This document shows positions 1,164 through 64,000 of a stretch of DNA of 64,000 nucleotides, piece by piece. The stretch's first letter is position 1. Every line of letters starts with the position of its first letter. Made by a program: the position numbers and the translations under genes. The stretch comes from Lunularia cruciata (lineage: Eukaryota; Streptophyta; Marchantiopsida; Lunulariales; Lunulariaceae), in assembly GCA_948567375.1 (NCBI GenBank), contig OX419762.1, forward strand, positions 12,158,001 through 12,222,000, written 5' to 3'. The notes beneath the pieces were generated by a model that was not told the DNA's origin, searched no databases, and saw only the letters and a program-made list of their open reading frames with translations.

Positions 1164-4100
1164 ATGGCGACTGACAGTAGTCTCCACCAGTTCGGCAACA
1201 TTTTACTGGGTGGACGTGGTGGCATGGTACCTTAATTATACTCCCGCTCATATTCTTAGCAAAGAGGAATTTGTGATTTATCAAAATTTGTTCAGCTTTC
1301 GGAGCCTCTATGAAGCTTCATTTCGTCTGTTTCTTTCGGGTTCTGTATTGAGTAACTAATCCGCCGCATAGGATAACAAGAAATAGTCATAAGAATAAAT
1401 ACAGAACAAAGATGTTGATCTATTAACATCTTTCTCCGTGATCACAAGGGAAAAAAGTCGATAATAGGTGAACATATTTACCTGTTCGGAACCATCGTCA
1501 TTCTTGACACGGGAAAGTTGACGACGCTTCCGTAGAGAGTGTTCCAAATTGATAAACGTAGCCGCCATTTTCCTTATCTAAGTGGTCACTCCATTCCATG
1601 GAGACTGTGAATGTCACTAGACGTTCTGTCGTGAACTACGAATTACCTATTACAGAGTGTTCCAAATTCGTAGACGTAGCCATTTTCTCTTTTTTGTTGA
1701 TCACTGCATTCCATGGAGACTGAATGTCTCGTCGACAAATCCATGGCACCACACCTTCTGCTGGGAACTACAAATTGCTTATTATTACCACTAAACAACC
1801 GATCGTTGGCAGCTAGCAACATCATCGAGGTCATCACCTCAATAACATAGCAGCAGTGGAAGAAAATTCCGAAGCCATATAGGATTAACCAAACAAACTG
1901 AGCCCAGTGGCACCATTCTATACTTAGTATCTACCTGTCAACCTACAACGTAAGAGCATTCTATCTTTTCTGAATCCCATACTCGTCTGTCTATCTATCT
2001 CAAGCTCCACCCCTATCAGGCATAATCGAGCTCCTCCACGGTTGAAGCTGGCCTTCCCTTTCTGCCAAACCTCCACACTGGCCTCGAGGAATAAGCAGCA
2101 GCACAAACAGGTGCTGCTGCCCTAAGTTCTAAATTCCACGTGAGAGCTTTCTCTGGTGTTGTCCGCGAGATAGCCACAAACCACAGGGGTGATTTCTGAC
2201 CAGAAATTTATTCGATATTGGTTATACAGGAGACGGGCGCCCCTAGCCTTTAGTTGCATGACTGTTCGTCATTGAAAGAAGGGAAATGTAGACAGCCAGC
2301 ACTAATCAACCGGCATACTTTTTTCTTCTTCAGTATCTGTAGAAGTCTTTTTGATTGAGAAACAATATAACGACGTCCATAATCATCATTCGACTGTTTC
2401 CTCTGCTTTTCACAGTTTTCAACCTAAACGTCTATACGGCATCTGGGCCTAATTTGCGGTGATGAATTTTATGAACAGAACCCTGGCCAACTCAAGGTTC
2501 ATCCAGGTGGTTTTGTATGGAAGAAAACGGGAGGTGGCAAGGTTGTGGATGTGGCGAAGGCGGACATTACTAGCTTAAGTTGGACGAGGCTACCGAAAGG
2601 TTATCAACTTGGTGTCAAAATGCGAGCTGGTTCAAATGTGAAGTTCAGCGGTTTTCGGGAACAGGTTTATTTCCATCTTTCACAGTTCACTCTTTACAAG
2701 AAGCATACGTGTTAGAAGTGATCCCAAATTGGAGGATTACTTTTAATATCCATGGTTTATCCACACAGGTTTGAATCGTAAGCATGGAAGAGTTTCATCT
2801 TAATTGAGTTACCATCAATGATGATCGGCTCCCCCGTGCTCTGGTTTCCTTGTTAGTCTGCTACCAGACAACAGGTGGTAGATGCCATGATCTCCTATGA
2901 TGATTTTTACAACCCCAGCTCGCTTGGAGTCCTTTCGGGGTCGCTGAAGAGAAATTGGTTCCAAAACGACAATATAACTGAGTGGATCATAGCCTATGAT
3001 TTGAAATAAAATATAATAAGCATGGATAGAGGCTATCGGTGTTTTGAAACCACGGGACTTTAATCCTTGTTTCCTTCTAAACATTGAAGTCCTGTTGCTG
3101 ACTGTAAACTTATTGGAGTCTTCCCGTCCAGAGTCTTTTTCTCAGAAGTCCCCGCTTCCATATGTGACAATTCCTAGAGCACTTTAAAGCTACTCAGTAC
3201 TGACAAGATGTCTACAAGAAGTCTCATTTTTAGACGCAGTACTTTTTTGAGCACGCAATTCATGTGCTAAATAGTGCACAGTTACGATGTTTTGTGCACA
3301 GGGAGTGTTTAGATGTTACAATAATTTTCTCATGCTTTCATAGTCTCATCAGCGTATTGACATTTGCATTATGCCCCTTTCCCTAGGATGTGGCGAGCTT
3401 GAATCCCTTTCTCAACGCGAACATGGGAATCAATCCAGACGACAAACCTTTAGCTATAAGTGGGCGCAATTGGGGGGAAGCAGAGCTAGAAGGTCTGTGA
3501 AGATCCATTCGCCTCACTTGATATTTCACAATGGAAGCTTTGGTTCTGTTGTTAAAGTCGATTATTACGTAGTGCGTGGGGTGAGATCTCTAAGACGACA
3601 AACTTGAAGCAAGTCTAGAGTAGGGTTTTTTCCCTTTCTCGAAGAAATTCGAGAGCGAGATTTTTGAAAACTAAGTGGGGAATTGGTTTGGTTATGCAGG
3701 GAACTTGCTTTCTTTTGTTGTCGGCGGGAAGCAAGCCTTTGAAGTGTCTATTTCAGATGTGAGCCAAACTCAGATGATGGGAAAGAATGACGTGGTGTTA
3801 GAGTTCCATGTGGATGACACCACCGGGGCAAATGAAGTACGTCTATTTTCAATGTTGGTTCTTCTTGTTGGGTGATTATGTCTTGCCCCCAAATGCCTGT
3901 CTAACTTACAAAGCTGATCTACAGAAAGATACATTGATGGAGCTCAGCTTTCACGTTCCCAGCACCAATAGTACTTACGTCGGTGACGAAGAGCGACCCT
4001 CAGCTCAGGTGTGTACTTTTATGCGAGTTATATAACTAAGCTGGTGATCTCCAGCAAACGTCTGTCATGCCTTTCCTTTCCAGAACTACGCGTTTTGCGG

Positions 4101-7100
4101 GGCAATCGCAAGATCAGGCAGATGCTAGAGCTGACAAGTTGGTGACCTCATACTTGGAAGCTGCAAGTAATGTTATTTTGCATCAGGGCTCATGCACGGT
4201 TTTGACTATGTGAGGGGTCTCAGGTGTTCTTTGAGAAGATTAAAGGGCTCGCAGATATTTCCACTCAAGGCACAGACGCAATTGCATTGTTTGAAGTGAT
4301 TACTGCGCTCACCCCAAGGTAAGTCTGATGTCTGCTTTTGATTTGTATTAATTGGTCTTCCAGCTCTCAATTGTCAGGTCTTCCGCGAGAAGATCCTGTC
4401 GATGGCGGACGTTGGGCCATCCGGTGCAGAAGCAATTTGTATGTTCGTTGAAGTTGGCATCCTTACACCAAGGTATACAAATTACGTATAGGGGTGCTAG
4501 TACAGTGAATCCTAAACACGAAAGCAGTATACCAATGTCTTGTTTGGCAGTGGAAGTGCTGACAAGGTGATTACATTGAATTTAGGTTCTATGATGGGAT
4601 TTTGGCTGATCTTGTTGCCATATGAGCATGTTTTGTCTGTTGCAGAGGACGATATAATGTGGAGCTGCATTTATCTTTTTTTCGTCTTCAAGGACAAGCG
4701 AATGACTTTAAGATTCAGTATAGCAGTGTAGTGCGGCTTTTTATTTTACCTAAGGTCAGTATTGTTGCCCTTATTCTTCGACCTACCTTGCTTCTTCAAG
4801 TCTTGCAACACATGTTAGCCCGAAGCTGGGACCGTATATTAGAAAAGGTCTTAAACCTTCTTCTAGTTTGTACTAAGATGGGGTTATGTTCGCCCTTAAA
4901 GAGAAGCAGAGACACACTTTGTTGTAGATTATCTTCAGAGGGATACTACGGTCTCTGCTTCCTCCATCGACGTGCACCTTTGCTGGAGTCCTGACCTAAC
5001 TAACGTATGACTTTGGTTTCCAGTCGAATCAACCCCATACTTTTGTGGTAATCACTTTGGACCCACCTATCCGGAAGGGTCAGACTTTTTATCCACACAT
5101 TGTTCTACAGGTAACACCTTCGTCCTGTCTAAATGGCTTACAATTTCCGTGTGACGTTTGGATGCAATATAGCGAGCTACGTGCAAGAAGTTTGTTGATG
5201 CACGCGGAAGGATGAACGTGCATAGGACCTTTTGGGTTTCCTTGTATTTTCCTTTGACTATGAGCAGTCATTATCTTCGTTTACTGACTTTGGCTTTGGG
5301 ATGTGCTGGATCAACAGTTCCCCTCTGAGGAAATAACCGAATGCAGTCTCTCAATGAACGAAGATCTTTTGAACACGAAGTACAAAGATCGACTGGAACC
5401 GTTCTACAAGGTTGGATCCAAACTCAACGTTTACTGCTATTTACCTTCTAAGAGAGCAATCGTAGCCTGAATTTAATTCTATATTGATTAACCTTTTTTG
5501 TTCACGCAGGACCTTTCACATGATGTATTTACTCAGATTCTCAAAGGACTCTCTGGTGCCAAAGTAACTGTACCAGGAAAATTCCGAAGCAGTCAGGATG
5601 GTGTTTCTGTAAGAGCATCATTAAAGGCAGAGGAAGGAACCTTATATCCACTGGAAAAAAGTTTCTTCTTCCTGCCCAAGCCTCCCACTCTTATTCTACA
5701 TGACGAGGTGCGAATTCAATAATGTTTTACGGATCTCTTTTGACCAGGTTTATGTGTCACCTGAGTGTTTGCAAGTACTGAAAGAATTGCCTGGAACCTA
5801 TACAAGCAGTCAATGGATCGTTTGTTGTGGACAAACTATATAGAGACAGAACAACCTCTAGCAAGTGTCAACCTCCTTTTCAAGTCTGTCACTGCTTGTG
5901 GGCATCACGGAGTTGTGACCAAAGTGTACTCCGGATTCATTGGTTGATTCATTTATTGATTGTGCAGATTGAGTATGTTGAGTTTGAAAGGCATGGTACG
6001 GCAGGAACAAGCAGTATATCGTCACACTATTTTGATCTCTTGATTCGCTTGAAGAGTGAACAAGAGCATCAATTCAGAAATATCCAGCGAAATGAATATC
6101 ATAATCTTTTCGATTTTATCAGGTAGTACGCAATGCCTTCCTTTCTGCTTTTCAGCTTGTGAAGTAAATTTTATCCTTTGCCGTTTCCCTATGCACTTTT
6201 GTTTTCGCACACTTGTCTGGGAAATCGTTATCATCAGTCACCGGGAGCACGGGAGTTCTTTCTTTGTTGAAACTGCCCAGGTTTTTATGCACTTTTAAAA
6301 ATTTATCAGCTTAGCTCTTGATGCGCTGGAAACGGCCATATCTAGCTTATGATGGCCTATTTAAATGAACAACAGTATTGCCATGTATGTTTCCATGTTA
6401 TATATCCGCACATTACGACAGAGATTAAGTCATGACCAGACAGATGATTCCAGTGTCAAGTCATCGTGGGTGACAGGAATCTGAAAGGGGTGGATACCAG
6501 ACTTAATACCATTATTTGTTATTATAAATAGTTTTACAATGTTACTCAAACGTGAGAGGCAGTCCGGTTAGACGTGGGTGTGGAGCCGGGTCCTATATTT
6601 TAAATTTTCGCATTGGAAATCATAACTTGGGTCGTTTATTGACTGTTCTTTCCTCCGACGTTTGGAATTGTTCTTTCAGTTCTAAAGGGTTGAAGATCTT
6701 AAATCTGGGCGACGCTCAAGGTGCAAGTGACGTTGCTGCTGCGTTGGCGGGCTCCGATGATGAAGGGGTAGATCCACATTTGAATCGCATCCGCAGTGCC
6801 AGAGGTGGAGGCGGAGGTGACGGTGGTGGTGAAGAAAGCGATGAAGAGGTAGTGTGGACACGATGTCTTGCTTATGTAAAAGTGATAGTTTCAAGACACG
6901 GGGCATGGAATGGATGCAAAGATGATTGTGAGTTTATTAGTATCTTGAGTCCAAATTCATTTCTTCACTTCCTTGGTACACCTCCGGCTGGCAAATGACA
7001 TAGGAAGTAAACGCAGATGTGAGATTAGTCAATAAAGTAGAGAGGGTTTATTTCTTAGAAAAGTTGAACTCATGGTATTAGTGGACAGACGCCGTTAAGG

Positions 7101-9245
7101 TTTGGTAATAGCATGACAACTTCGGGTAGTAAGAAATGATAGGTGGCCAGCTCAGCAGATCCGAGTTTAGGTATCGAATCTCTTCTGTTGTCATCCTGGT
7201 CAATGCGCAGATTTCGGCCTATAGAAGCTTGGTCTAGTCTCTTTAGCACGCGTAATCTTCGTCTAACCTCATATTGTGCGTGCAGGATGAGGACTTTGTG
7301 GCGGAGAAGGACGATGCAGGGTCCCCAACTGACGACTCTGAAGCTGAAGAACCCGATGCCAGTGATAGTGGTGGCGAAGAGGAGCCAGATGAAGAGGATG
7401 ACGAGGATGAGGCAATAATCACAGCCCAGTCTTTTCCAGAATACACTGCGTTCGTGTTATGTTGGAGCCACAAGATACAAGCATACACAACTAACACTAG
7501 ACGATGGTTCTTGTAGTGATGTTAGCATCGACAGTGGCTCCGTATGCAGCTAAATACTTGCACCTGTCAAACCGTAAACAAATTTAAGTTGTCCTTCGTG
7601 CTTTCGTTAAGCATGACTTCTAGCCTATCGTACCCAAACTGCATGAATATAGCACTTGAATTGAGAACAGGTATTTCATATAAGTAACTGTATACCTTTG
7701 TTAGCTCATCCTGAGGGGTTGACTGGTGTGATTCACAGGATGAAAGACCGGCTAAGAAGGAAAGAAAAAAGAGAGAGCCCGCCGCTGCCAAGGCTGGACG
7801 GAAGAGAAAGAGTAAAGATGAAGGGGAAGGAGGGAAGAAACAAAAGCGGAAGAAGAAGGACCCAAACGCCCCAAAACGTGGGCTATCAGGGTTCATGTAT
7901 TTCTCACAGTCAGAGAGAGAGGTACGAGATGATTTGTCATTGGTTTCGTTGAGGTAGTCTGCGTTTTGATCAGCTTCTTCTCTAATTTGCAGTCCCGATA
8001 TTCTGTCTTTCTGGAGTCTTCTGCCCCATCGGATGGGAATGATCGGAAATTAACGACTAAATGATATCGTATTATGCTAACAGAATTTGAAGAAAAGTCA
8101 ACCAGGACTGTCCTTTACCGACACAGGAAAGGTTCTCGGAGATAAATGGAAGAAGATGTCAGGTAATTGATTATATCTCGATTCACGAACCCATTTGTCG
8201 CTTTGCATCCGTTCTTGCCTGCATTTCCTTGCTTCCATCTGAATGTCTCCTGTTGGGACCGCTTCGGTCCTAAGTGGGTTTGGATCCTCCATTTTGCGGA
8301 GGGCTTCTGCTCCTATTACTCAAATACCTGGATTCACGAACTTTTTGCTACTCAGTCAAAGAAGATAATGAACACAAGTGTAGCGTAAGTCAAATGGATA
8401 TATCTTTACGGATTCATTTCCATTTCCTTAGATGCAATTCATTTCGTTCTGCACACGTTCATGCTTGCATTTCATATGCACGTTCTCCGTTCCATACTTA
8501 GTGGGTTCTGGATCCCCCGTTCCTCGAATGGCTTTTGCTCCCCTTTTATATCTTTACGGATTTACGGATTCGTTAGGTCGTCGTTTCCCAGTTAAGTTTT
8601 GTTTTTCTCTACATGCACTGTTTATCTGTTACCGTTTATTCGATGCATGCTATTGGTATACAAGTGTTGCTCTTTAATTGTTTCTAGATGGCATTTACTT
8701 CTGCTTACATTCGATCAATTGTTTCCATTTCATCTCCTTTCCCGGTTTTATACTAATTTCGTCTTGCACAGTTCTTGTATACATTACATATCATGCATCT
8801 CAGATTGCATTCAGTGAGTTCTGGATCCCCCGTTCGACGAACGGCTTCTGTCCTGTCTCAATATCTTTACCGATTCACTTGCTTAGCTCGCCTTCCTTTC
8901 ATTTTGAATGCCTTGATTGCTTGGATGCTTCCTTGATTGCATTTTTCATTTGCATGTCTATGGTTCGATCTTAAGTGGGTTCTGGATCCCCTGTTCGATC
9001 AACGGCTTCTGCGCCAATATCGTCACGAATAAAGCAAGTATAACAATTGCTTATTTGCAAGCCCTCCGTACTAGTCTTACCTAGCTGGATATATGGCTTG
9101 GACCTTGTGTGCAGTGGATGAAAAGGCACCCTATGAAGCTAAGGCTGCCGCTGACAAGGAAAGATACAAGCGTGACATGATAGAGTTCAACCGCGGTGGT
9201 GGTGGGGGCGGTGGTCCAGCAGACGATGGATCCGATGATGAATGA
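1164..9245 (+). CDS. SSRP1: FACT complex subunit SSRP1 (HMG-box histone chaperone), 16 coding exons
   Basis: SSRP1 pairs with SPT16 to form FACT, which loosens and rebuilds nucleosomes during transcription and replication in the nucleus. Coding exons by translation and splice sites: 1164-1226, 2479-2664, 3387-3492, 3700-3836, 3925-4008, exon 6 (4378-4472, or the alternative 4224-4318), 4646-4754, 5024-5110, 5318-5410, 5510-5707, 5968-6122, 6680-6848, 7286-7411, 7739-7921, 8084-8162, 9115-9245. All phases agree and give about 666 residues, close to Arabidopsis SSRP1. The ATG at 1164 sits in a good context (GCCATGG) and gives an N-terminus reading [11 protein letters not shown], as in plant SSRP1. 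The N-terminal and tandem PH-like middle domains fill residues 1 to about 440 ([36 protein letters not shown]). An acidic stretch follows (about 450-536), then a Lys/Arg-rich linker, an HMG box (about 577-645, DPNAPKRG to RYK) and a short Gly-rich acidic tail. Intron 13 appears to use a GC donor. Confidence 0.95.
1537..1790. repeat. Diverged 118-bp tandem duplication in SSRP1 intron 1
   Basis: Two head-to-tail copies start at 1537 and 1655. Both carry GAGTGTTCCAAATT, then ACGTAGCC, CATTCCATGGAGACTG and a closing GAACTAC-AATT block. They differ by substitutions and small indels, so the duplication is not recent. It lies in the 1252-bp first intron of SSRP1. Confidence 0.75.
4224..4318 (+). other. 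SSRP1 alternative exon 6a (divergent copy)
   Basis: This 95-bp exon is preceded by GGGTCTCAG and followed by the perfect donor AAG/GTAAGT. It encodes 32 residues beginning [11 protein letters not shown] and ending ALTPR. It is about 47% identical to the product of exon 6b (15 of 32 by eye) and has the same length and the same phases (0 in, 2 out). It can replace exon 6b without changing the frame. It has no stop codon, and it keeps the invariant LTPR that leads into the first PH strand. Its middle is less like other SSRP1 proteins than exon 6b. Confidence 0.75.
4378..4472 (+). other. SSRP1 exon 6b (canonical copy)
   Basis: This 95-bp exon has acceptor AATTGTCAG and donor CCAAG/GTATAC. It encodes [12 protein letters not shown] through VGILTPR, which resembles the same stretch of animal and plant SSRP1 (ILSxADV, then AICxF and LTPRGRY) more closely than exon 6a does. 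The 59 bases between 6a and 6b (4319-4377) would make a very short plant intron, so joining 6a to 6b is probably sterically blocked. Confidence 0.85.
7412..7738 (+). other. SSRP1 intron 13 with a likely GC-AG boundary
   Basis: The acidic exon 13 reads in frame to GATGAG at 7411 and the next bases are GCAATA. No GT donor nearby keeps the frame. The acceptor ATTCACAG at 7738 joins in phase 0 to the Lys/Arg-rich exon 14. A GC-AG intron is the simplest reading. Retaining the intron instead would end the protein at about 7514 and lose the HMG box. Confidence 0.65.
8255..9015. repeat. Four-copy degenerate repeat in SSRP1 intron 15
   Basis: A conserved core of about 40 bases (AGTGGGTTCTGGATCCCC, then about 9 bases, then ACGGCTTCTG) occurs near 8272, 8499, 8815 and 8972. 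The flanks, rich in CATTT and CTTGC motifs, are repeated more loosely. In the copy near 8815 the core holds the near-perfect palindrome CCGTTCGACGAACGG. Another hairpin, GGACCGCTTCGGTCC, lies at about 8256-8270. All of it is inside the 952-bp intron between the two halves of the HMG box. Confidence 0.7.
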
Positions 9246-14794: not shown

Positions 14795-17087
14795 ATGATG
14801 GCGAACTCGGTAGCTTTGGGACCGTGCGTGCTCTCGTCCTCAGGGTTGGGAACATGTCCTCCCCCGGTTGCCTCGTTATCGCCTTCTTCTTGTTCCACTT
14901 CTTCTCCGCAGATGGTTCCGCTCCATAGAGCGAGACCTGTTGTGATTCGATCGCAATATAGTGATAACGGGGGGCTGAATTACTTTAGGTTTCTAAGAAC
15001 GCAGCAGCAATCTTCAGGGTCCGTTGCTAAAGCTGCAAGGCAATCGTCGGATTGGATGGACGATTCTACTGCTGCAAACGGTTCGTGAAATTGCGTTATT
15101 ATTTCTCTTTACTATTGTCAATTGTGTTGTTGGGTTGGTTGATGGTAGCGTCTAAGTGGAGTGTTGAAGATGTTTATGGCTTATGACTTTTGAATTACGA
15201 TTGTAGGAACTGATACTACGGAGGAGGATGTGATCACTCCTATGATTTGGGACGAGGCTTCTGAGAAGCAGCAGGAAGGGATCGTTCCGTTTGGGAGGAC
15301 TTCCTTCTTATCCCTGTCCCAGGTTTTGGCCTTTTCCACCCCTGCGACAGCGCCAATTCTGTGCATTTAATGTGTCCTTTCATGTGTACTGCTTGCGCAT
15401 TGTACAATTGTCATGAACCTGGTGGGGCAATTGAGTTAACAGCTTTGGCGTTGTGATGCTCTTTCGCTTTTGTCCATCATATCTCTAAGAAGGCTTCAGC
15501 CACTTGACTTGAATGAAGGTTTTGTAACTATCAATATTCAGATAACCTCGATATTAGATTGGTGTTCTCTTTGGTGGACAGTAGCTATGCTCCATGAATG
15601 TAGCAGATCGCTAAAATAGCTTTGGGAATCATGCGAGTACAACCGAACAATTCAGGGCAACTCTTGCCAACTCAAACTGCCTGCACGGCTTCTTGGCAGC
15701 TAGCTGATTTGATATGTCTGAGTTTACTGCTCCCTCTCGCCTAGAGCCGGGCTATCCAAAAGCCAATGGCCTTGATGACGGATTGCGAAAATGAATTGAA
15801 AGCAATCTTTAATTCCACTCAGGAGCATGTGATGCCAGTGGTTGATAGCAACTAAGAGAGGATACCAATTCAGTTCAGGCAGAATCGCACTGGTCTTCGA
15901 ACCGGATGTTTTAACCAGTTTTGAAGATTGGGTTAGCACTTGCAACGAAGATTAACAATGAAACAATGAAACAAGGAAGAACTCAAGGAATAAAGTAGAT
16001 GGTTTGCAATACTTTAAACAAAGATAAGAAAGTTGATTATGGACGTCAGGATTAGGAATCTCTTCATACCTTTTCGGTTTTCTTGGTGAATTAGAGAATG
16101 TGAAGCACGTCTTCGGCGATTATTGAAATGGTTGTCTGGTGTTTAGATAGAGTGGAGGTAGTAGGATAAAAGTTCGGTGCGTAGGAGTACTCTTCGGACG
16201 GTTCGTTCGGACTTCTAAGCTTTACCAAATTGAACGTTCCAATCTGCAAGGGACCTCAAGTGCGCCATCTTCGCGCATGCCGGGAGTTGTCTCAGTTTCA
16301 TGTATTCCTAAAGTGCTCGTCGTGGTAATTTAAGCTTTGGAGATATTCCATTGATACCAAGTTTTGTGGCAGAAGCTTCCATGAACTCGAGGATCGAAAT
16401 CGAGGCTAAAATGTTAAATCCACTGAAATGGTGTGCAGGACGTTGCTATGGGATTGGTGTTGCAAGCAGCAACAGCTACTGGGTGGACAACTGGCTCTGG
16501 TCTCGAGGGTCCAGCGATACCAAAAGAGGAGGATGCCGCCGAAGAAGACAAATTGAAGTTCCCTTATTTGAGCAAGTCGCCAAGGAGGAAGATGAGAGTA
16601 GCATTCACCTGCAATGTATGTGGTGAGCGGACGACTAGAGCTATCAATCCTCATGCCTATTCGGATGGCACGGTATTTGTACAGGTAATAATCAACGCAA
16701 TAGAAGATAGAAGGTTATGATAATAAATCAAGTGCTGAATCTCCTCTGCTCTATAGTGTAAGTTTCAGCTGGACGACTCGAAGTCGGCAGAAAAATAGGT
16801 CGGAACATTTCGATTCGGTTATAGAGTGCACCTAATTGCTAAGTCAGAATCGTGAAAGCTATATGTTGGAGCATATATTGTTAGCCGGGCCTAATTCCTG
16901 ACTGTTGTCAATGCAGTGCAAGGGTTGTGATGTCTTTCACAAGCTGGTTGACAATCTGAAATTGTTCCATGAGATGAATGGAAAGATCTACCGCGGTTAT
17001 GATACTCCTTGGTATGCGAATGATCAGCCATACGATTTCTTCAGTAGAGGACAGTACCCTGATGATGATCATTTCCCCGGGTTGTAG
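14795..17087 (+). CDS. Organellar DNL-type zinc-finger protein (Zim17/Tim15/Hsp70-escort family)
   Basis: Four exons fit by phase: 14795-15080, 15207-15322, 16439-16684 and 16917-17087, giving about 272 residues. DNL proteins bind mitochondrial or plastid Hsp70 and keep it soluble during protein import and folding. Exons 3 and 4 encode the domain: CNVC (residues about 192-195), then RAINPHAYSDGTVFVQ, CKGC (217-220), and the signature HKLVDNLKLF containing the DNL tripeptide (228-230). The four Cys would bind one zinc. The N-terminal 95 residues are Ser/Pro/Ala-rich with few acids and Arg further on, as in a transit peptide; the target could be plastid or mitochondrion. Start choice: an in-frame stop lies at 14783, and ATGs at 14795 and 14798 are adjacent, the second with the better context (ATGGCG). 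The 1116-bp intron 2 holds nothing recognisable. Confidence 0.93.
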
Positions 17088-28567: not shown

Positions 28568-31500
28568 TTGGTATCAGAGCAAGAATGGGATGGATGGAAT
28601 TTATGAACCACCAAATCCACTTCCACCAAACCATTGGGATTTTTGCGTCCAAATACTACCCAAGTATCGTTTCACACAATTCATCACCTTGCACTTTGGA
28701 CGAGATTTTCTACATATGATCACCATATCGGAGGAACCCTTGGTGCTTCCGATTGTAACTTATGGAGAACGGTGGACGTGCTATTTCTATGTGTTAATAA
28801 ATTAGATAGATTGGGAGTGGTGTGATAGAGGAGCAACCATGGCGGCAATACCTGATGTTATCCTTGCTATGCAACAACAAATCGAGCACCTTACTTGATT
28901 GTTGGATGAACGAGATCTTCGATGACAAGAGCAGGTGGAGAGAGTACCAATTCGAGAAGGAGAAGATTGGATTAGATTCCCTAAACCCAAGGTATTTGAA
29001 GGCAAGAATCTCCCGGGTGCAGTGGAGAATTTTGTGTTTGATTGTGAATGTTATTTTGAAGCTACCAATCTACAAGATGAGCAAAAACAGATTCTCTTTG
29101 TTTCTAGCCAATTGGATGGAGTAGCAAAGCTATGGTGGAGATTCCGAGTGGAGCGAGCCAAATGACAAATGGTTGCACCGATCTTGACATGGGCAGAATT
29201 CAAGAGCACAATAATCAGTTGGTTCCAAGCTATAAATGCCACACAAGCTGCACGAGATAAGTTGGCAGAGTTGAAATAGATTGGCACTGTAAGAAGTTAC
29301 ATCACGCAGTTCCAAAACACCATCATGCAAATTCTAGATATTTTGGAGGGTGAAGCTCTGGATCAATTCACGAGGGGCTTGAAGGCAAGAACCAAATTAG
29401 AGGTAACAATGCAAGAAGTTTGATGATGGCGGATGGTAGAAAGGGTTGATGATGGCGGATGGTAGAAAGGGTTCTGCATTCCGCACCTCGCATCCTATTA
29501 CCTTCAAGATTGGGAAGGAGTATGAGGTTTGTAGTGGCATCTCTACACTATGATATCATTCTGGGTCTACCTTGGCTTGAACATCATAATGTTCAATTCG
29601 ATTGGACCCGACGCCAAATTCAAATACAACACCAAGGTAGGAATTTCCGATTAGGTTGTCTGGCACCTATGAGTAAGACACCTAAGAATAGTCAGTCCCA
29701 AGATGGGAAGTTTGTTGAGAAGGTAGCCATAGAGAAAATCTGGAAGGGAGATGAGTCCCAAGATGGGAAGTTTGCCAAGAAGGCAACCATGGAGCAAGCT
29801 TGGGAGAGAGATGAGTCCCTGGAAGGGAAGTTTGTTAATGAAGCAGCCATAGAGCAAGCTTTGGAGGAAGATAAGTCTATATTTGTGGTGTGGATCAAGC
29901 CAATTGCACAAGAACAATTCGAGGAGTGCCAAGAGCCTCATCAAGCAATGGTTGATTGGATAGTTCAAGAGTTTGCAGATGTGTTTCCGGATGATCTGTC
30001 AAAGGGATTATCCTCCGATCGAGGTATGCCCTTCAAGATCAAGTTATTGCTAGGGAGTACTCTAGTGAGTAGACCAATCTATCGGCTCTCACCAAAGGAG
30101 TTGGAGGAGTTGCGAACAACACTTACAAAGTTGTTGGAGAAGGATTTCATACAACATAGTACCTCTCCTTGGGGAGCACTGGTACTATTTGTTCTAAAGA
30201 AGGATGGAGGACTTCGTTTCTATATTGATTACCGTGGGCTCAATAAGCAAATTGTGAAGAATGCATATCCCTTGCCTCAGATCGATGACCTACTTGATCA
30301 ATTAAGTGGAGCACGCTACTTTTCCAAGCTGGATCTTTGTAGCGGCTATTGGCAAATTCCTATTGAAGGAGAGGATATGCAAAAGACTGCCTTTTACACA
30401 AGGTATGGACATTTTGAGTGGAGAGTTCTACCTTTTGGACTCACTAATGCTCTAGTAGTCTTCATGGATCATATGCATCGGGTGTTGGAGGGACTATTGG
30501 ATCGGTCCATGGTGGTGTTCTTAGATAATATCTTAATCTATAGCAGGACAGAGGTAGAACACATGAATCATGTACGAGAAGTCTTAAGCCGACTATGACA
30601 ATGGAAATTTTATTGCAAGAAGTCAAAGTGTGCTTTTTGACAAAAGGAGGTTACCTTTGTGGGTCATAAGATCTCATCAGAGGGGATCAAGATGGAAGAA
30701 GAGAAGATCAAGGCCATTACTGATTGGCCTACCCCGAAGGATGCTACAAAAGTATAAGCATTCAATGGATTGGCCAGTTTTTACCAATGGTTCATCCACT
30801 ATTATGCTCACGTGGCTGCACCATTGACTGACCTCTTGGGAAAGAACTTGAGCTTCCAATGGACCACCAAGCATGAAGAAGCATTCCAGAAGTTAAAGCA
30901 TATGGTGTCTTCAAGACCCATTCTTCAACCATATGATCCTCAACTACCTTGTGTGGTTGATTTTGATGCTTCTAACTTTGCAATTGGAGCTATGTTGCAA
31001 CAAGAATTTGCAAATGGACTACATCCTATTGCCTTTGTGTCTCACCCACTAAATACAGCTGAAAGAAATTACTCTACTTGAGATCGAGAACAACTTGCAA
31101 TGGTATATGCTACCAAGGTATGGAGGCATTATCTCTTGGAGAAACAAGTGATAATGCGAATTGATCACAAGCTATTGTTGCAGACCTTACACTTGGAGCA
31201 CATGAAGCGTCAACATCATCGATGGGAAGAGCAACTCCAATTTTTTGACATCAAACTTGAGTACAAACTAAGTCGGTTCCATATCATCCTTGATGCTATA
31301 TCACGACGACCTGATTTGAAGGCTCTTCCTCTTATCACAACGGCAATTACAACGGTGTCCATTGACCCTAAGGTCCATAATGAGTTTCAATCAGCTCTAC
31401 AACAAGATTCCTTCTTCCAAATGGTACACTGTCATTTGATAGCATGCAACAAGGCATACAACACCTTCTCCTTCAAGGAAGGCCTTTTATTCCATGCAGA

Positions 31501-32892
31501 CCAGATCTATGTTCCAGCCAAAGGTGATCTTTGACTTGTGCACCTTCAAGAAGCCCATGATTTACCAATATTTGGTCACATGGGAGTGGACAAGACCTTG
31601 GGCACCCTCCAACGCCAATGGTGGTGGCCCAACATGACACGAGATGTTTGAGACTTTGTCCAATCATGTGAGAGTTGCCAACGTAACAAGGCCAGCAACC
31701 AGAAGCCGAGTGGGCTCCTTCAACCACTTGCCATTCCATCCACTCATTGGGAGCATGTGAGCTTGGATCTCATCACATCCTTGCCAAAGACAAAACAAGG
31801 ACACACCGTAATTGTGGTGTTTGTCGATAAGCTTAGTAAGCAAATCCACTTGGCACCAACCTGTGATACCGTGGATGCTCCAACCTTAGCGCAAATCTAC
31901 TTCGACAATGTCTTCAAGCATCAAGGGGTGCCATGTGTCCTCATCTCTGACTGTGAATCCTTGATTTACCAAGAAGTTTTGGCAAGCACTCTTCCAGATA
32001 CTTGGCGCAAGCTTACTTTGTCCATGGCCTATCATCCTCAAACTAATGGACAAACCAAACGTGCAAATCGTACATTGGAGGATATGTTGCGGGCCTTTGT
32101 CAATGTCCACCATACCAACTGGGATGAATGTCTTGCAGCTACAGAATTTGCCTACAATAATTCCAAACAGGCAAGCATTGGATTGTCTTCCTTCTTTCTC
32201 AATTTTGGCCAAGATCTGCTTGTTCTAGATTCTCTTCTTGTTCCCCCTCCATCTCAAGTTCCTCATACTTCCACATTCTTGACCACTATATCCCAATTGC
32301 TCCAACAAGCCAAGTCTCACCTCCTTGTTGCTCAGAATCGCCAAAAACAATATGCGGACCACCATTGTCGTGATCTCACCTTTGAAGTTTAGGTTTTGAT
32401 AGGTAGGAAGTTTAGGTAGGAAGTTTTGATAAGGTCATGCTATCCTCAAGTAACCTGCCTCTCCCACTTGATACCCAAGTTTGTAAACTTGCCCCTAATT
32501 GGATAGGACTTTTTGATATCACCCAAATTGTCTCTCTTGTTGCTTATCGACTTGCCTTACCTTGTCACATGCGTATCCATCTTGTCTTTCATGTTTCCAA
32601 GTTGAAACCCTTTGTTCCTAACCCCTCTTCCTTTTCCTCTCGAGTCCAACCTCCCCCTCTTCCTGTCCTTAGCAATGATCATGAGGAGTACAAAGTTGAT
32701 TGTATCCTTGCACGTCGCCATATTCAACAAGGCCGTCGCCACCATACGGAGTACAAGGTCCTTTGGAAAGGGTATCCCCTTCATGATGCCACCTTGGAGC
32801 CTCTTTCTCACCTCCAGAGTGCAAAGATGGCCATCTAGGAATTTGAAGCTTCACTGTCGACGAAGACGTCACCAACTAGCGGCGGGGGAAGA

Positions 32893-60420: not shown

Positions 60421-63400
60421 TATTCCCCCACCGCTAGTTGATGACGTCCTCATCGCTAGTGTGCTTCAAATTCCTTGATGGCCATCTATGCATTCTAGAG
60501 GTGGGAAGGAGGTTCCCATGTGGCATCATGAAGAGGATACCCTTTCCAAAGGACCTTGTACTCTAGATGTTGGCGACGGCCTCGTTGAATATAGAGACGC
60601 GCAAGGATACAATCAACTTTGTACTCCTCATGATCATTGATAGGGACAGGTAGAGGAGGAGGTTGGACTCAAGAGGAAAAGGAAGAAGGGTTAGGAACAA
60701 AGGGTTTCAACTTGGAAACATGAAAGATAGGATGGATACGCATGTGACAAGGCAAGGCAAGTCGATAAGCAATAGGAGAAACAATGTGGATGATATCAAA
60801 GGGTCCTATCCAATTAAGAGCAAGTTTACAAACTTGGGTATCAAGTGGGAGGGGGAGGTTACTAGAGGATAGCATGACTTTATCACCAACTTCAAAGGTA
60901 AGATCACGACGATGGTGGTCTGCATATTGTTTTTGGCAATTCTGAGCAACAAGGAGGTGAGACTTAGCTTGTTGGAGAGATTGGGATATAGTGGTCAAGA
61001 ATGTGGAAGTATGAGGAACCTGAGAGGGAGGGGGAGCAAGAAGAGAATCTGGAACAAGCGGATCTTGGCCAAAATTGAGAAAGAAGGGAGAAAATCCGGT
61101 GCTTGCTTGTTTGGAATTATTGTAGGCAAATTCTGCAACTGCAAGATATTTATCCCAGTTGGTATGGTGGACATTGACAAAGGCCCACAACATATCCTCC
61201 AATGTATGATTTGCACGTTTGAGTTGTCCATCAGTTTGAGGATGATAGGCCGTGGACAAAGCAAGCTTGGTGCCAAGTATCTGGAAGAGTGCTTGCCAAA
61301 ACTTCCCGGTAAATCAAAGATCACGGTCGGAGATGAGTACACGTGGCATCCCATGATGCTTGAAGACATTGTTGAAGTAGATTTGCGCTAAGGTTGTTGC
61401 ATCCACGATATCATAGGTTGGTGCCAAGTGGATTTGCTTACTAAGCTTATCCACAAACACCATGATTGCGGTGTGTCCTTGTTTTGTCTTTGGCAAGGAT
61501 GTGATGAGATCCAAGCTCACATGCTCCCTGTGGGCGGATGGAATGGCGAGTGGTTGAAGGAGTCCACTCGGCTTCTGGTTGCTGGCCTTGTTACATTGGC
61601 AACTCTCACATGATTGGATAAAGTCTCAAACATCTTGTGTCATGTTGGGCCACCACCATTGGCGTTGGAGGGTGCCCAAGGTCTTGTCCACTCCCATATG
61701 ACCAGCTATTGGTAAATCATGGGCTTCTTGAAGGTGCACAAGTCAAAGATCACCTTTAGCTAGAACATAGATCTGGTCTGCATGAAATAAAAGGTCTTCC
61801 TTGAAGGAGAAGGTGTTGTAGTCCTTGTCGCATGCTGTCAGACTGCTGTGTACCATTTGGAAGAAGGGATCTTGTTGTAGAGCTGATTGAAACTCAATAT
61901 AGATCTTAGGGTCAATGGACACCGTTGTAATTGCCGCCGTGATGAGATTGTGGTCCATAGGAAGCTCAAGTTCTCTCCCAAGAGGTCAGACAATGGTGCA
62001 GCCACGTGAGCATAATAGTGGATGAACCGTCGGTAAAAACTGGCCAATCCATTGAATGCTTGTACTTCTGTAGTATCCTTTGGGGTAGGCCAATTAGTAA
62101 TGGCCTTGATCTTGTCTTCTTCCATCTTGATCCCCTCTGATGAGATCTTATGACCCAAGAAGGTAACCTCCTTCTGCCAAAAAGCACACTTTGACTTCTT
62201 GAAGTAAAATTTCCACTATTGTAGTCGTATTAGGACTTCTCGCACATGATTCATGTGTTCTACCCTTGTCTTGCTATAGAATAAGATATCATCTAAGAAC
62301 ACTACCATGGACCAATCCAATAGTCCCTCCAACATCCGATGCATCTGATCCATGAAGACTACTGGAGCATTAGTGAGTCCGAAAGGTAGAACTCTCCACT
62401 CAAAATGTCCATACCTTGTGCGAAAGGGAGTCTTTTGCACGTCCTCTCCTTCAATAGGAATTTGCCAATAGCCGCTATGAAGATCCAGCTTGGAAAAGTA
62501 GCGTGCTCCACTTAGTTGATCAAGCAGGTCATCAATTCGAGGCAAGGGATATGCATTCTTCACGGTTTGCTTATTGAGCCCACGGTAATCAATATAGAAA
62601 CAAAGTCCTCCATCCTTCTTTGGAACAAATAGTACCGGTGCTTTCCAAGCAGAGGTACTATGTCGTATGAAATCCTTCTCCAACAACTTTGTAAGTGTTG
62701 TTCGCAACTCCTCCAACTCCTTTGGTAAGAGCTGATAGATTGGTCTACTCACTGGAGTACTCTCTAGCAATAACTCGATCTTCCTTTGCTACTTGCATAA
62801 ACATGCAATTCTCTAAACTTCTAGAATCCACCAAAATCCTACAACCCCGATTAGATATCGTACCTTGCAAGTGAAGTAAACTTGCATAGGTTGAGCCTTC
62901 AATCCCATTGGAACTAATCAAGCTCTCAATAGGTGGCTTGAAATCTCCTATTGGGATTCTTCATTTCCTTGATCCATCTGTTCCACAAACTTCATCTGGG
63001 CAACTTGTCAAGGTTGCCCATTCCTAAGTGGACACTGGGCAATGCAATGTCCAACTTGGCAACAATAAAAGCAACCTCTATTTTGTCGTAATCTTTCTCT
63101 ATCTATTGTGCCAAGTGATCTTTGTTGGATAGCATCAATCTCTATTGGTACCGGTTCTTCCACTCGTGCGTAGTGTATTGGTAGGCTTTGTGTAGGTCGA
63201 GGTCAAGACCAAGTTGTCACAACCAAGGAATCAAAATGCTCAGCCAATTGCATGGCTTCTTCTACGTTTTGTGGCTCCCGCATGGTCACCTCTAATTTAG
63301 TTTGTGACTTCAATCCTTGCACAAATCGATCTAGAACTTCACATTCTTGGATATTTGGAATTTGCATGATGACGTTCTGAAATTGTGTCATGTAGCTTCT

Positions 63401-64000
63401 TACTAAGCCAATCTGCCTCAACTCCGCCAATTTATCTCGTGCGGCTTGGGTGGCATTTATAGTTTGAAATTGACCAAGTATTGCATCTTTGAATTCTGCC
63501 CATGTCAAAATTGGTATAACAATTTGTTGTTTAGCTCTTTCTACTCGGAATTGCCACCAAAGTTTTGCCACATCATCCAATTGGCTAGAAGCCAAGAGAA
63601 TTTGTTTCCGCTCATCTTGAAGATTGGTGGCTTCAAAGTAACATTTGCAGTCAAACATAAAATTCTCCACTGTGCTTGGAAGATTCTTGCCTTCAAACAC
63701 CTTGGGTTTTGGAAATCAAATGCGATCTTCTCCATCTCGAAATGGTGCTCTGTTTATTTGTTCTTGTCATTGTTGGTCTTGTTCATCCAACAATCGAGTA
63801 AGATGCTCGATTTGTTGTTGCATTGCAAGGATAACATCTGGTATTGCAGCCATCGCTACTACTCTATTCCACTATCCTCAATTTATCTAATTGATTAACA
63901 CTAGATACAACACATCCACCATTCTCCATAAGTTACAACTGGAAGTATCAAGGGTTCCTCAGACACGGTGATCATATGTAGAAAATCTTGTCCAAAGCGC
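59999..64000 (-). mobile_element. Chromovirus C: same family, minus strand, runs off the right edge
   Basis: The 3' LTR is 59999-60420 (TGTAACA to TTTTACA on the minus strand), preceded by the purine-rich tract near 60421-60436. In minus-strand order from the right edge: gag (about 63850-63200), CCHC knuckle near 63070-63030, reverse transcriptase (62770-62216, with [11 protein letters not shown] and [16 protein letters not shown]), RNase H, integrase (about 61700-60850) and chromodomain (about 60660-60480). The primer site and 5' LTR lie beyond 64000. It is broken, by roughly ten changes, and its reading frames are about as well kept as those of copy A. Age cannot be set without the other LTR. 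Confidence 0.9.

Follow-up and report, generated by a model that had tools for sequence, protein, structure and literature searches.

The alternative use of homologous exons, one at a time, is a known phenomenon. In the alpha-tropomyosin gene, mutually exclusive use is enforced by the unusual, distant location of the branch point in an intervening intron of ordinary length, and in Dscam the exclusion of homologous exons is achieved by regulators or RNA structure. FACT is a core histone chaperone that is usually treated as one invariant complex, and in a core plant histone chaperone homologous mutually exclusive exons are unexpected. Exons 4a and 4b of OGDH derive from an ancient exon duplication and are mutually exclusive; exclusion is reported to be enforced by branch points close to the donor of the intron that separates them, which measures 118–131 nt in birds and mammals, and the swap changes calcium sensitivity (PMC7969005). 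Among plant genes, mutually exclusive exons of 19 and 15 residues are described in the Arabidopsis MADS factor FLM/MAF1, the 3′ exon being cryptic and likely of recent origin, with remnants only in MAF2 and MAF3 (PMC3266260). Mutually exclusive exons account for 11 of the 2442 splicing events counted in an Arabidopsis proteome study (PMC13136898). In rapeseed, 6.61% of events are placed under the heading of mutual exclusion; these are then subdivided into alternative exon ends and are therefore probably a different thing, and the SSRP1 orthologue is named among genes with line-specific splicing (PMC7548069). The passages of PMC4357127 that were consulted contain no SSRP1 exon pair, and no prior description of the pair reported here was found in open-licence full texts. 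A sequence-only reading of this DNA had known of no mutually exclusive pair in plant SSRP1.

The window, that is, the whole stretch of 64,000 nt of Lunularia cruciata DNA that was analysed, contains an SSRP1 gene with two adjacent versions of exon 6, designated 6a and 6b. Our interpretation, to which we assign a probability of roughly 0.8, is that they go back to an old tandem duplication of a single SSRP1 exon and are used as mutually exclusive alternatives. They very probably form a conserved, functional pair of homologous mutually exclusive exons, and the plant is probably able to build two versions of FACT from one SSRP1 gene. The features concerned, in window coordinates, are as follows:

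1164..9245, + strand: coding part of the SSRP1 gene; 16 coding exons per transcript, exon 6 in two alternative versions; 666 aa
3925..4008, + strand: exon 5, in both isoforms; donor CAG/GTGTGT
4009..4223, + strand: intron 5, 215 nt; acceptor ahead of 6a with 7/17 pyrimidines; a single YTRAY match in the final 60 nt, 18 nt from the acceptor
4224..4318, + strand: exon 6a, 95 nt; 31 residues and a split Arg codon; donor AAG/GTAAGT; 32/32 residues identical to P0003
4319..4377, + strand: intron between 6a and 6b, 59 nt; YTRAY matches at A10, A23 and A33
4378..4472, + strand: exon 6b, 95 nt; 31 residues and a split Arg codon; donor AAG/GTATAC; 31/32 residues identical to P0005
4473..4645, + strand: intron following 6b, 173 nt
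4646..4754, + strand: exon 7, in both isoforms; contributes its first base to the split Arg codon of 6a or 6b

The gene encodes the FACT subunit SSRP1. Pfam identified POB3_N, SSrecog, PH1_SSRP1-like and Rtt106-like middle domains, in this order, within the first 449 residues of both window isoforms, which is the part that Pfam covered, and the HMG box is seen in the relatives P0003 and P0005. The best PDB match of the window protein is the FACT complex subunit SSRP1 (E 2.8e-92). Among the 120 best of 746 matches, the closest protein is the hypothetical protein Mapa_013144 (P0003) of Marchantia paleacea, with 93% full-length identity to the 6b isoform and with 27 differences in 666 positions from the 6a isoform. 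Elsewhere in the gene, exon 13 apparently has a GC donor (GAG/GCAATA; window 7406–7420), which is non-canonical but belongs to the known GC-AG intron type, and intron 15 (window 8163–9114) contains dispersed, diverged repeats, 66 and 72 nt long, that are 61–77% identical to the reference copy and have a common GGATCC-containing core.

Exons 6a and 6b are each 95 nt long, are bordered by AG and GT, are entered in phase 0 and left in phase 2, and lie 59 nt apart. With either one alone, the spliced translation is open from ATG to TGA and yields the full 666-residue SSRP1. When 6a and 6b are joined, translation stops at codon 284, inside exon 7, and when neither is included it stops at codon 196, a TAA that is the fourth codon of exon 7. 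The sequence-only reading had proposed two adjacent 95-bp exons at these positions, with canonical splice sites, phases 0/2, open frames in both and a stop in exon 7 after either double inclusion or double skipping; its coordinates proved exact to the base, and the remaining points are borne out as well. An extra AG is found 9 nt upstream of the 6a acceptor (gtgag/gggtctcag; window 4213–4223), the use of which would add three in-frame residues, GSQ.

The two exons are identical at 15 of 32 residues (47%, close to the figure first estimated) and at 51 of 95 nucleotides. Their ungapped BLOSUM62 score is 74, and 20,000 base shuffles of 6a averaged −36 and never exceeded 20, which rules out chance similarity. 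Identities at codon positions 1, 2 and 3 number 18, 22 and 12 of 32; pN is 0.38 and pS 0.71, corresponding to a dN/dS of about 0.24 with dS near saturation, and Fisher's test, applied to rounded counts, gives p 0.008. An ungapped scan of both strands of window positions 3000–6000 identified no third copy of exon 6, the best non-exon score being 8. A second SSRP1 locus was considered as a possible source of 6a and found no support in this search: a query of exons 6b and 7 against the 566-Mb genome assembly (565,766,749 bases in 74 contigs) at E <= 0.001 matched only the window's own two exons, with three candidates scored and the counts being lower bounds.

Exon 6 encodes residues 193–224. In both isoforms, SSrecog occupies residues 109–178 and PH1_SSRP1-like residues 210–339, and the SSRP1 chain 5ums, which we take to be the human SSRP1 middle domain, matches residues 192 to 452 of the window protein. 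Exchange of the exons therefore replaces the linker after SSrecog together with the start of the first PH domain, in the middle domain, that is, at the join of the N-terminal and middle domains where the exon had been placed initially. The PH1_SSRP1-like score is 166.1 bits with 6a and 166.5 bits with 6b. Exon 6a departs from near-constant plant positions, for example by F in place of R195 (R occurs in 100 of the 119 aligned sequences) and by A in place of I220 (occupied by I or V in all 119), and retains D203, F215 and LTP, each found in all 119 aligned plant sequences. Identities with the human segment number 15 for 6b and 11 for 6a, and those with the yeast segment 12 and 13, respectively, 6b being the closer or equal version. 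FACT complexes that differ in residues 193–224 may differ functionally.

The intron between 6a and 6b is the shortest of the 16 intervals between exons of the gene, the next being 88 nt. It contains three YTRAY matches. Measured from the 6a donor they lie at 10, 23 and 33 nt, and measured from the 6b acceptor at 49, 36 and 26 nt, the third having the most favourable position; a looser match, CTCAA (A51), is 51 nt away from the donor and 8 nt from the acceptor. In human splicing, approximately 50 nt are needed between the 5′ splice site and the branch site, and assembly on an adenovirus E1A pre-mRNA was abolished when the distance was cut to 35 nt (PMC6692369). All YTRAY matches fall below this distance, and steric exclusion through the short intron is thus likely, where branch points are putative pattern matches and the threshold is taken from human splicing. 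It is not certain, because a paper on plant splice sites cites introns of 56 bp as validated and shorter ones as claimed in human (PMC6310983). A steric reason for exclusive choice had been suggested from the shortness of the gap; the position of the putative branch points strengthens the argument, and exclusion is the prediction.

The model we favour is that one SSRP1 exon was duplicated in tandem long ago to give 6a and 6b, separated by an intron that would be too short for splicing. Splicing of the 6a donor directly to the 6b acceptor would then be prevented, and both sites could still be joined to partners farther away. Exon 5 would join either 6a, the donor of which would skip over 6b to exon 7, or 6b, which would be followed by exon 7. 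Transcripts with both or neither version would undergo a frame shift and an early stop, and this frame rule is a second safeguard beside the predicted steric exclusion. As in alpha-tropomyosin, mutual exclusion would follow from an odd placement of the branch point, and as in OGDH old duplicated exons would be combined with branch points close to the upstream donor; in the SSRP1 gene these are predictions from sequence, whereas branch-point enforcement is reported for OGDH. The differences lie in the entire intron being 59 nt here, as opposed to an intron of ordinary length in alpha-tropomyosin and one of at least twice the length in OGDH, and in a chromatin factor being affected instead of an animal muscle protein. 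The FLM/MAF1 case, as described, is similar in that exclusive exons give a plant nuclear protein two isoforms with different interaction motifs, and dissimilar in that the liverwort SSRP1 pair is homologous, frame-matched and old.

The two stops in exon 7 would also be explained if the pair mainly tuned the level of SSRP1, one isoform being a by-product, since nonsense-mediated decay of the double-inclusion and double-skipping transcripts is probable. We consider such a role very unlikely, however, because a poison exon needs no coding sequence that is homologous and matched in frame, the PH1 domain accommodates 6a as well as it does 6b, 6a is identical in Marchantia paleacea, and double inclusion is itself unlikely given the short intron.

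The splice sites of the two exons are complementary in strength. The donor of 6a matches the consensus at 8 of 9 positions, joint best of the gene's 16 donors, and that of 6b at 5 of 9; on the other hand, the acceptor of 6b has 12 pyrimidines in 17 and that of 6a has 7. All of these values fall within the range of the gene, in which the donors of five other exons also score 5/9 and two acceptors, at 2479 (7/17) and 5318 (6/17), are no better than that of 6a. A better donor with a poorer acceptor in 6a, and the reverse in 6b, leaves room for regulation. Exclusion could accordingly be real and yet depend on regulatory proteins, or on RNA structures that compete with one another, instead of the short intron; this arrangement of sites and the precedent of Dscam speak for such control, and the RNA structure of the exon pair was represented by two single-sequence folds. 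It seems rather unlikely as the basis of exclusion, given that the short intron is in principle sufficient by itself.

The occurrence of each exon in another liverwort argues for the mutually exclusive pair. In the SSRP1 predicted for Marchantia paleacea (P0003), exon 6 is 6a and matches at all 32 residues; in the one predicted for the leafy liverwort Calypogeia fissa (P0005), it is 6b and matches at 31 of 32. Each of the two proteins has exactly one version of exon 6. The proposed check of 6a in relatives thus finds it intact in Marchantia paleacea, the one relative that could be examined by protein. Since the gene models of two other liverworts each use a different one of the window exons, selection on both is implied; this protein-level comparison, together with the dN/dS between the exons, suggests that both 6a and 6b have been kept by selection. 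Over the 635 residues that lie outside exon 6, the window protein and P0003 show 27 differences, so that the absence of changes in 6a is what a normally constrained SSRP1 exon would show: it is not exceptional against the gene average (P 0.25), though lower than expected from the variable exons 13, 14 and 16 at the C-terminal end (15 differences in 146; P 0.03). The Marchantia paleacea gene model may be partly ab initio. It is extremely improbable that 6a is a decayed pseudoexon that is open by chance, as its agreement with the predicted protein of another species is strongly contrary to decay and its splice sites are intact.

A replacement of one exon by the other has also to be considered, in which 6a would be the normal exon 6 of complex thalloid liverworts and 6b would survive here while being used little or not at all, or the roles would be exchanged. 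The sole Marchantia model examined has 6a only and 6a has the better donor, both of which would fit the former case. Yet the 6b of the window has a single difference in 32 residues from that of the distant Calypogeia and retains its AG and GT borders, which would not be expected of an unused exon, and 6a is intact to the same degree, so that replacement is improbable in either direction.

In order to survey the two types more widely, 209 fetched proteins, excluding the window pieces P0001 and P0002, were scanned without gaps. An exon-6-like segment with a score >= 60 was present in 123 of them and was absent or scored below 60 in the other 86; 120 segments were nearer to 6b, three were nearer to 6a and none was tied. 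P0003 is the only carrier of 6a among the 123. The other two, P0115 of Parasponia and P0117 of Trema, score 77 for 6a and 66 for 6b and were rejected as 6a carriers, being counted as divergent 6b because the second half of the segment is of the ordinary angiosperm 6b type. Its first half is unusual, reading VFCDGIKVVADVNTGG as against VFRDKIMSMADVGAGG in Morus P0086; this feature is common to both genera and is perhaps another exon variant or an effect of the gene models. A search on the 6a region retrieved one protein from six candidates, and a search with a 180-residue fragment at E <= 1e-10 retrieved 89 proteins from 136 candidates, none of which contained 6a. The protein database was clustered at 90% identity, so that isoforms of one species would be merged; the cluster of P0003 comprises five sequences, of which the other members are hidden. 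Among the matches listed (120 of 746), the moss, fern, lycophyte and seed-plant proteins include none of the 6a type. Other land-plant SSRP1 proteins have the same domain order and a 6b-type segment, as mosses, ferns and seed plants do among these matches, and differ from the window gene in lacking 6a there. The 6b exon of the window is identical to Sphagnum P0007 at 27 of 32 residues. Calypogeia fissa has two more partial SSRP1-like predictions beside P0005, namely P0139, with a 6b-type segment, and P0135, without an exon-6 segment.

With regard to the age of the duplication, 6a has L214 and E216, as mosses do, and both liverwort 6b exons have M and V at these positions. This is a hint that 6a may have originated before the split between Marchantia and Calypogeia, although a one-residue shift could explain E216. 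Trees were compared for 18 sequences chosen from those fetched, at 32 sites. Placing 6a as the sister of the window 6b gave AU p 0.039, p-KH 0.068 and p-SH 0.35; placing it as the sister of the liverwort 6b pair gave AU p 0.34, and placing it outside the other land plants gave AU p 0.28. The unconstrained tree was the best at these 32 sites, yet it misplaces the alga Mesotaenium. The split between Lunularia and Marchantia is put at some 220 Ma in one source, in a sentence that can be read in more than one way (PMC9985172). Judging by the complete match to Marchantia paleacea, the protein sequence of 6a appears unchanged since these lineages separated. It is also tempting to speculate, tentatively, that complex thalloid liverworts have kept a steric SSRP1 switch for about 200 million years and use two kinds of FACT across tissues, sexes or life stages.

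If the mutually exclusive pair operates as proposed, some plants would make two FACT versions from one gene. On the more speculative view of a long-kept steric switch, the pair would amount to a built-in chromatin switch replacing a second SSRP1 gene, with isoforms that diverge where the middle domain, which binds histones and DNA, begins, and would also represent a plant case of exclusion enforced purely by a too-short intron. Because Marchantia is a tractable genetic model, the exons could be removed singly to learn what the linker and the opening part of the middle domain do in nucleosome handling.

Two further observations concern the remainder of the window. A gene at 14799–17085 contains, as read by eye, a zinc-finger segment, CNVCGERTTRAINPHAYSDGTVFVQ, followed by CKGCDVFHKLVDN in the next exon, which is presumably of the Zim17/DNL type. 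Retrotransposon reading frames are located at 29459–32392 (+ strand) and at 60669–63700 (mostly − strand), and we take them to be Ty3/Gypsy elements from their appearance. The Lunularia cruciata assembly is given as 580 Mb with a large excess of Ty3/Gypsy, and Marchantia assemblies as 223–238 Mb (PMC9985172).
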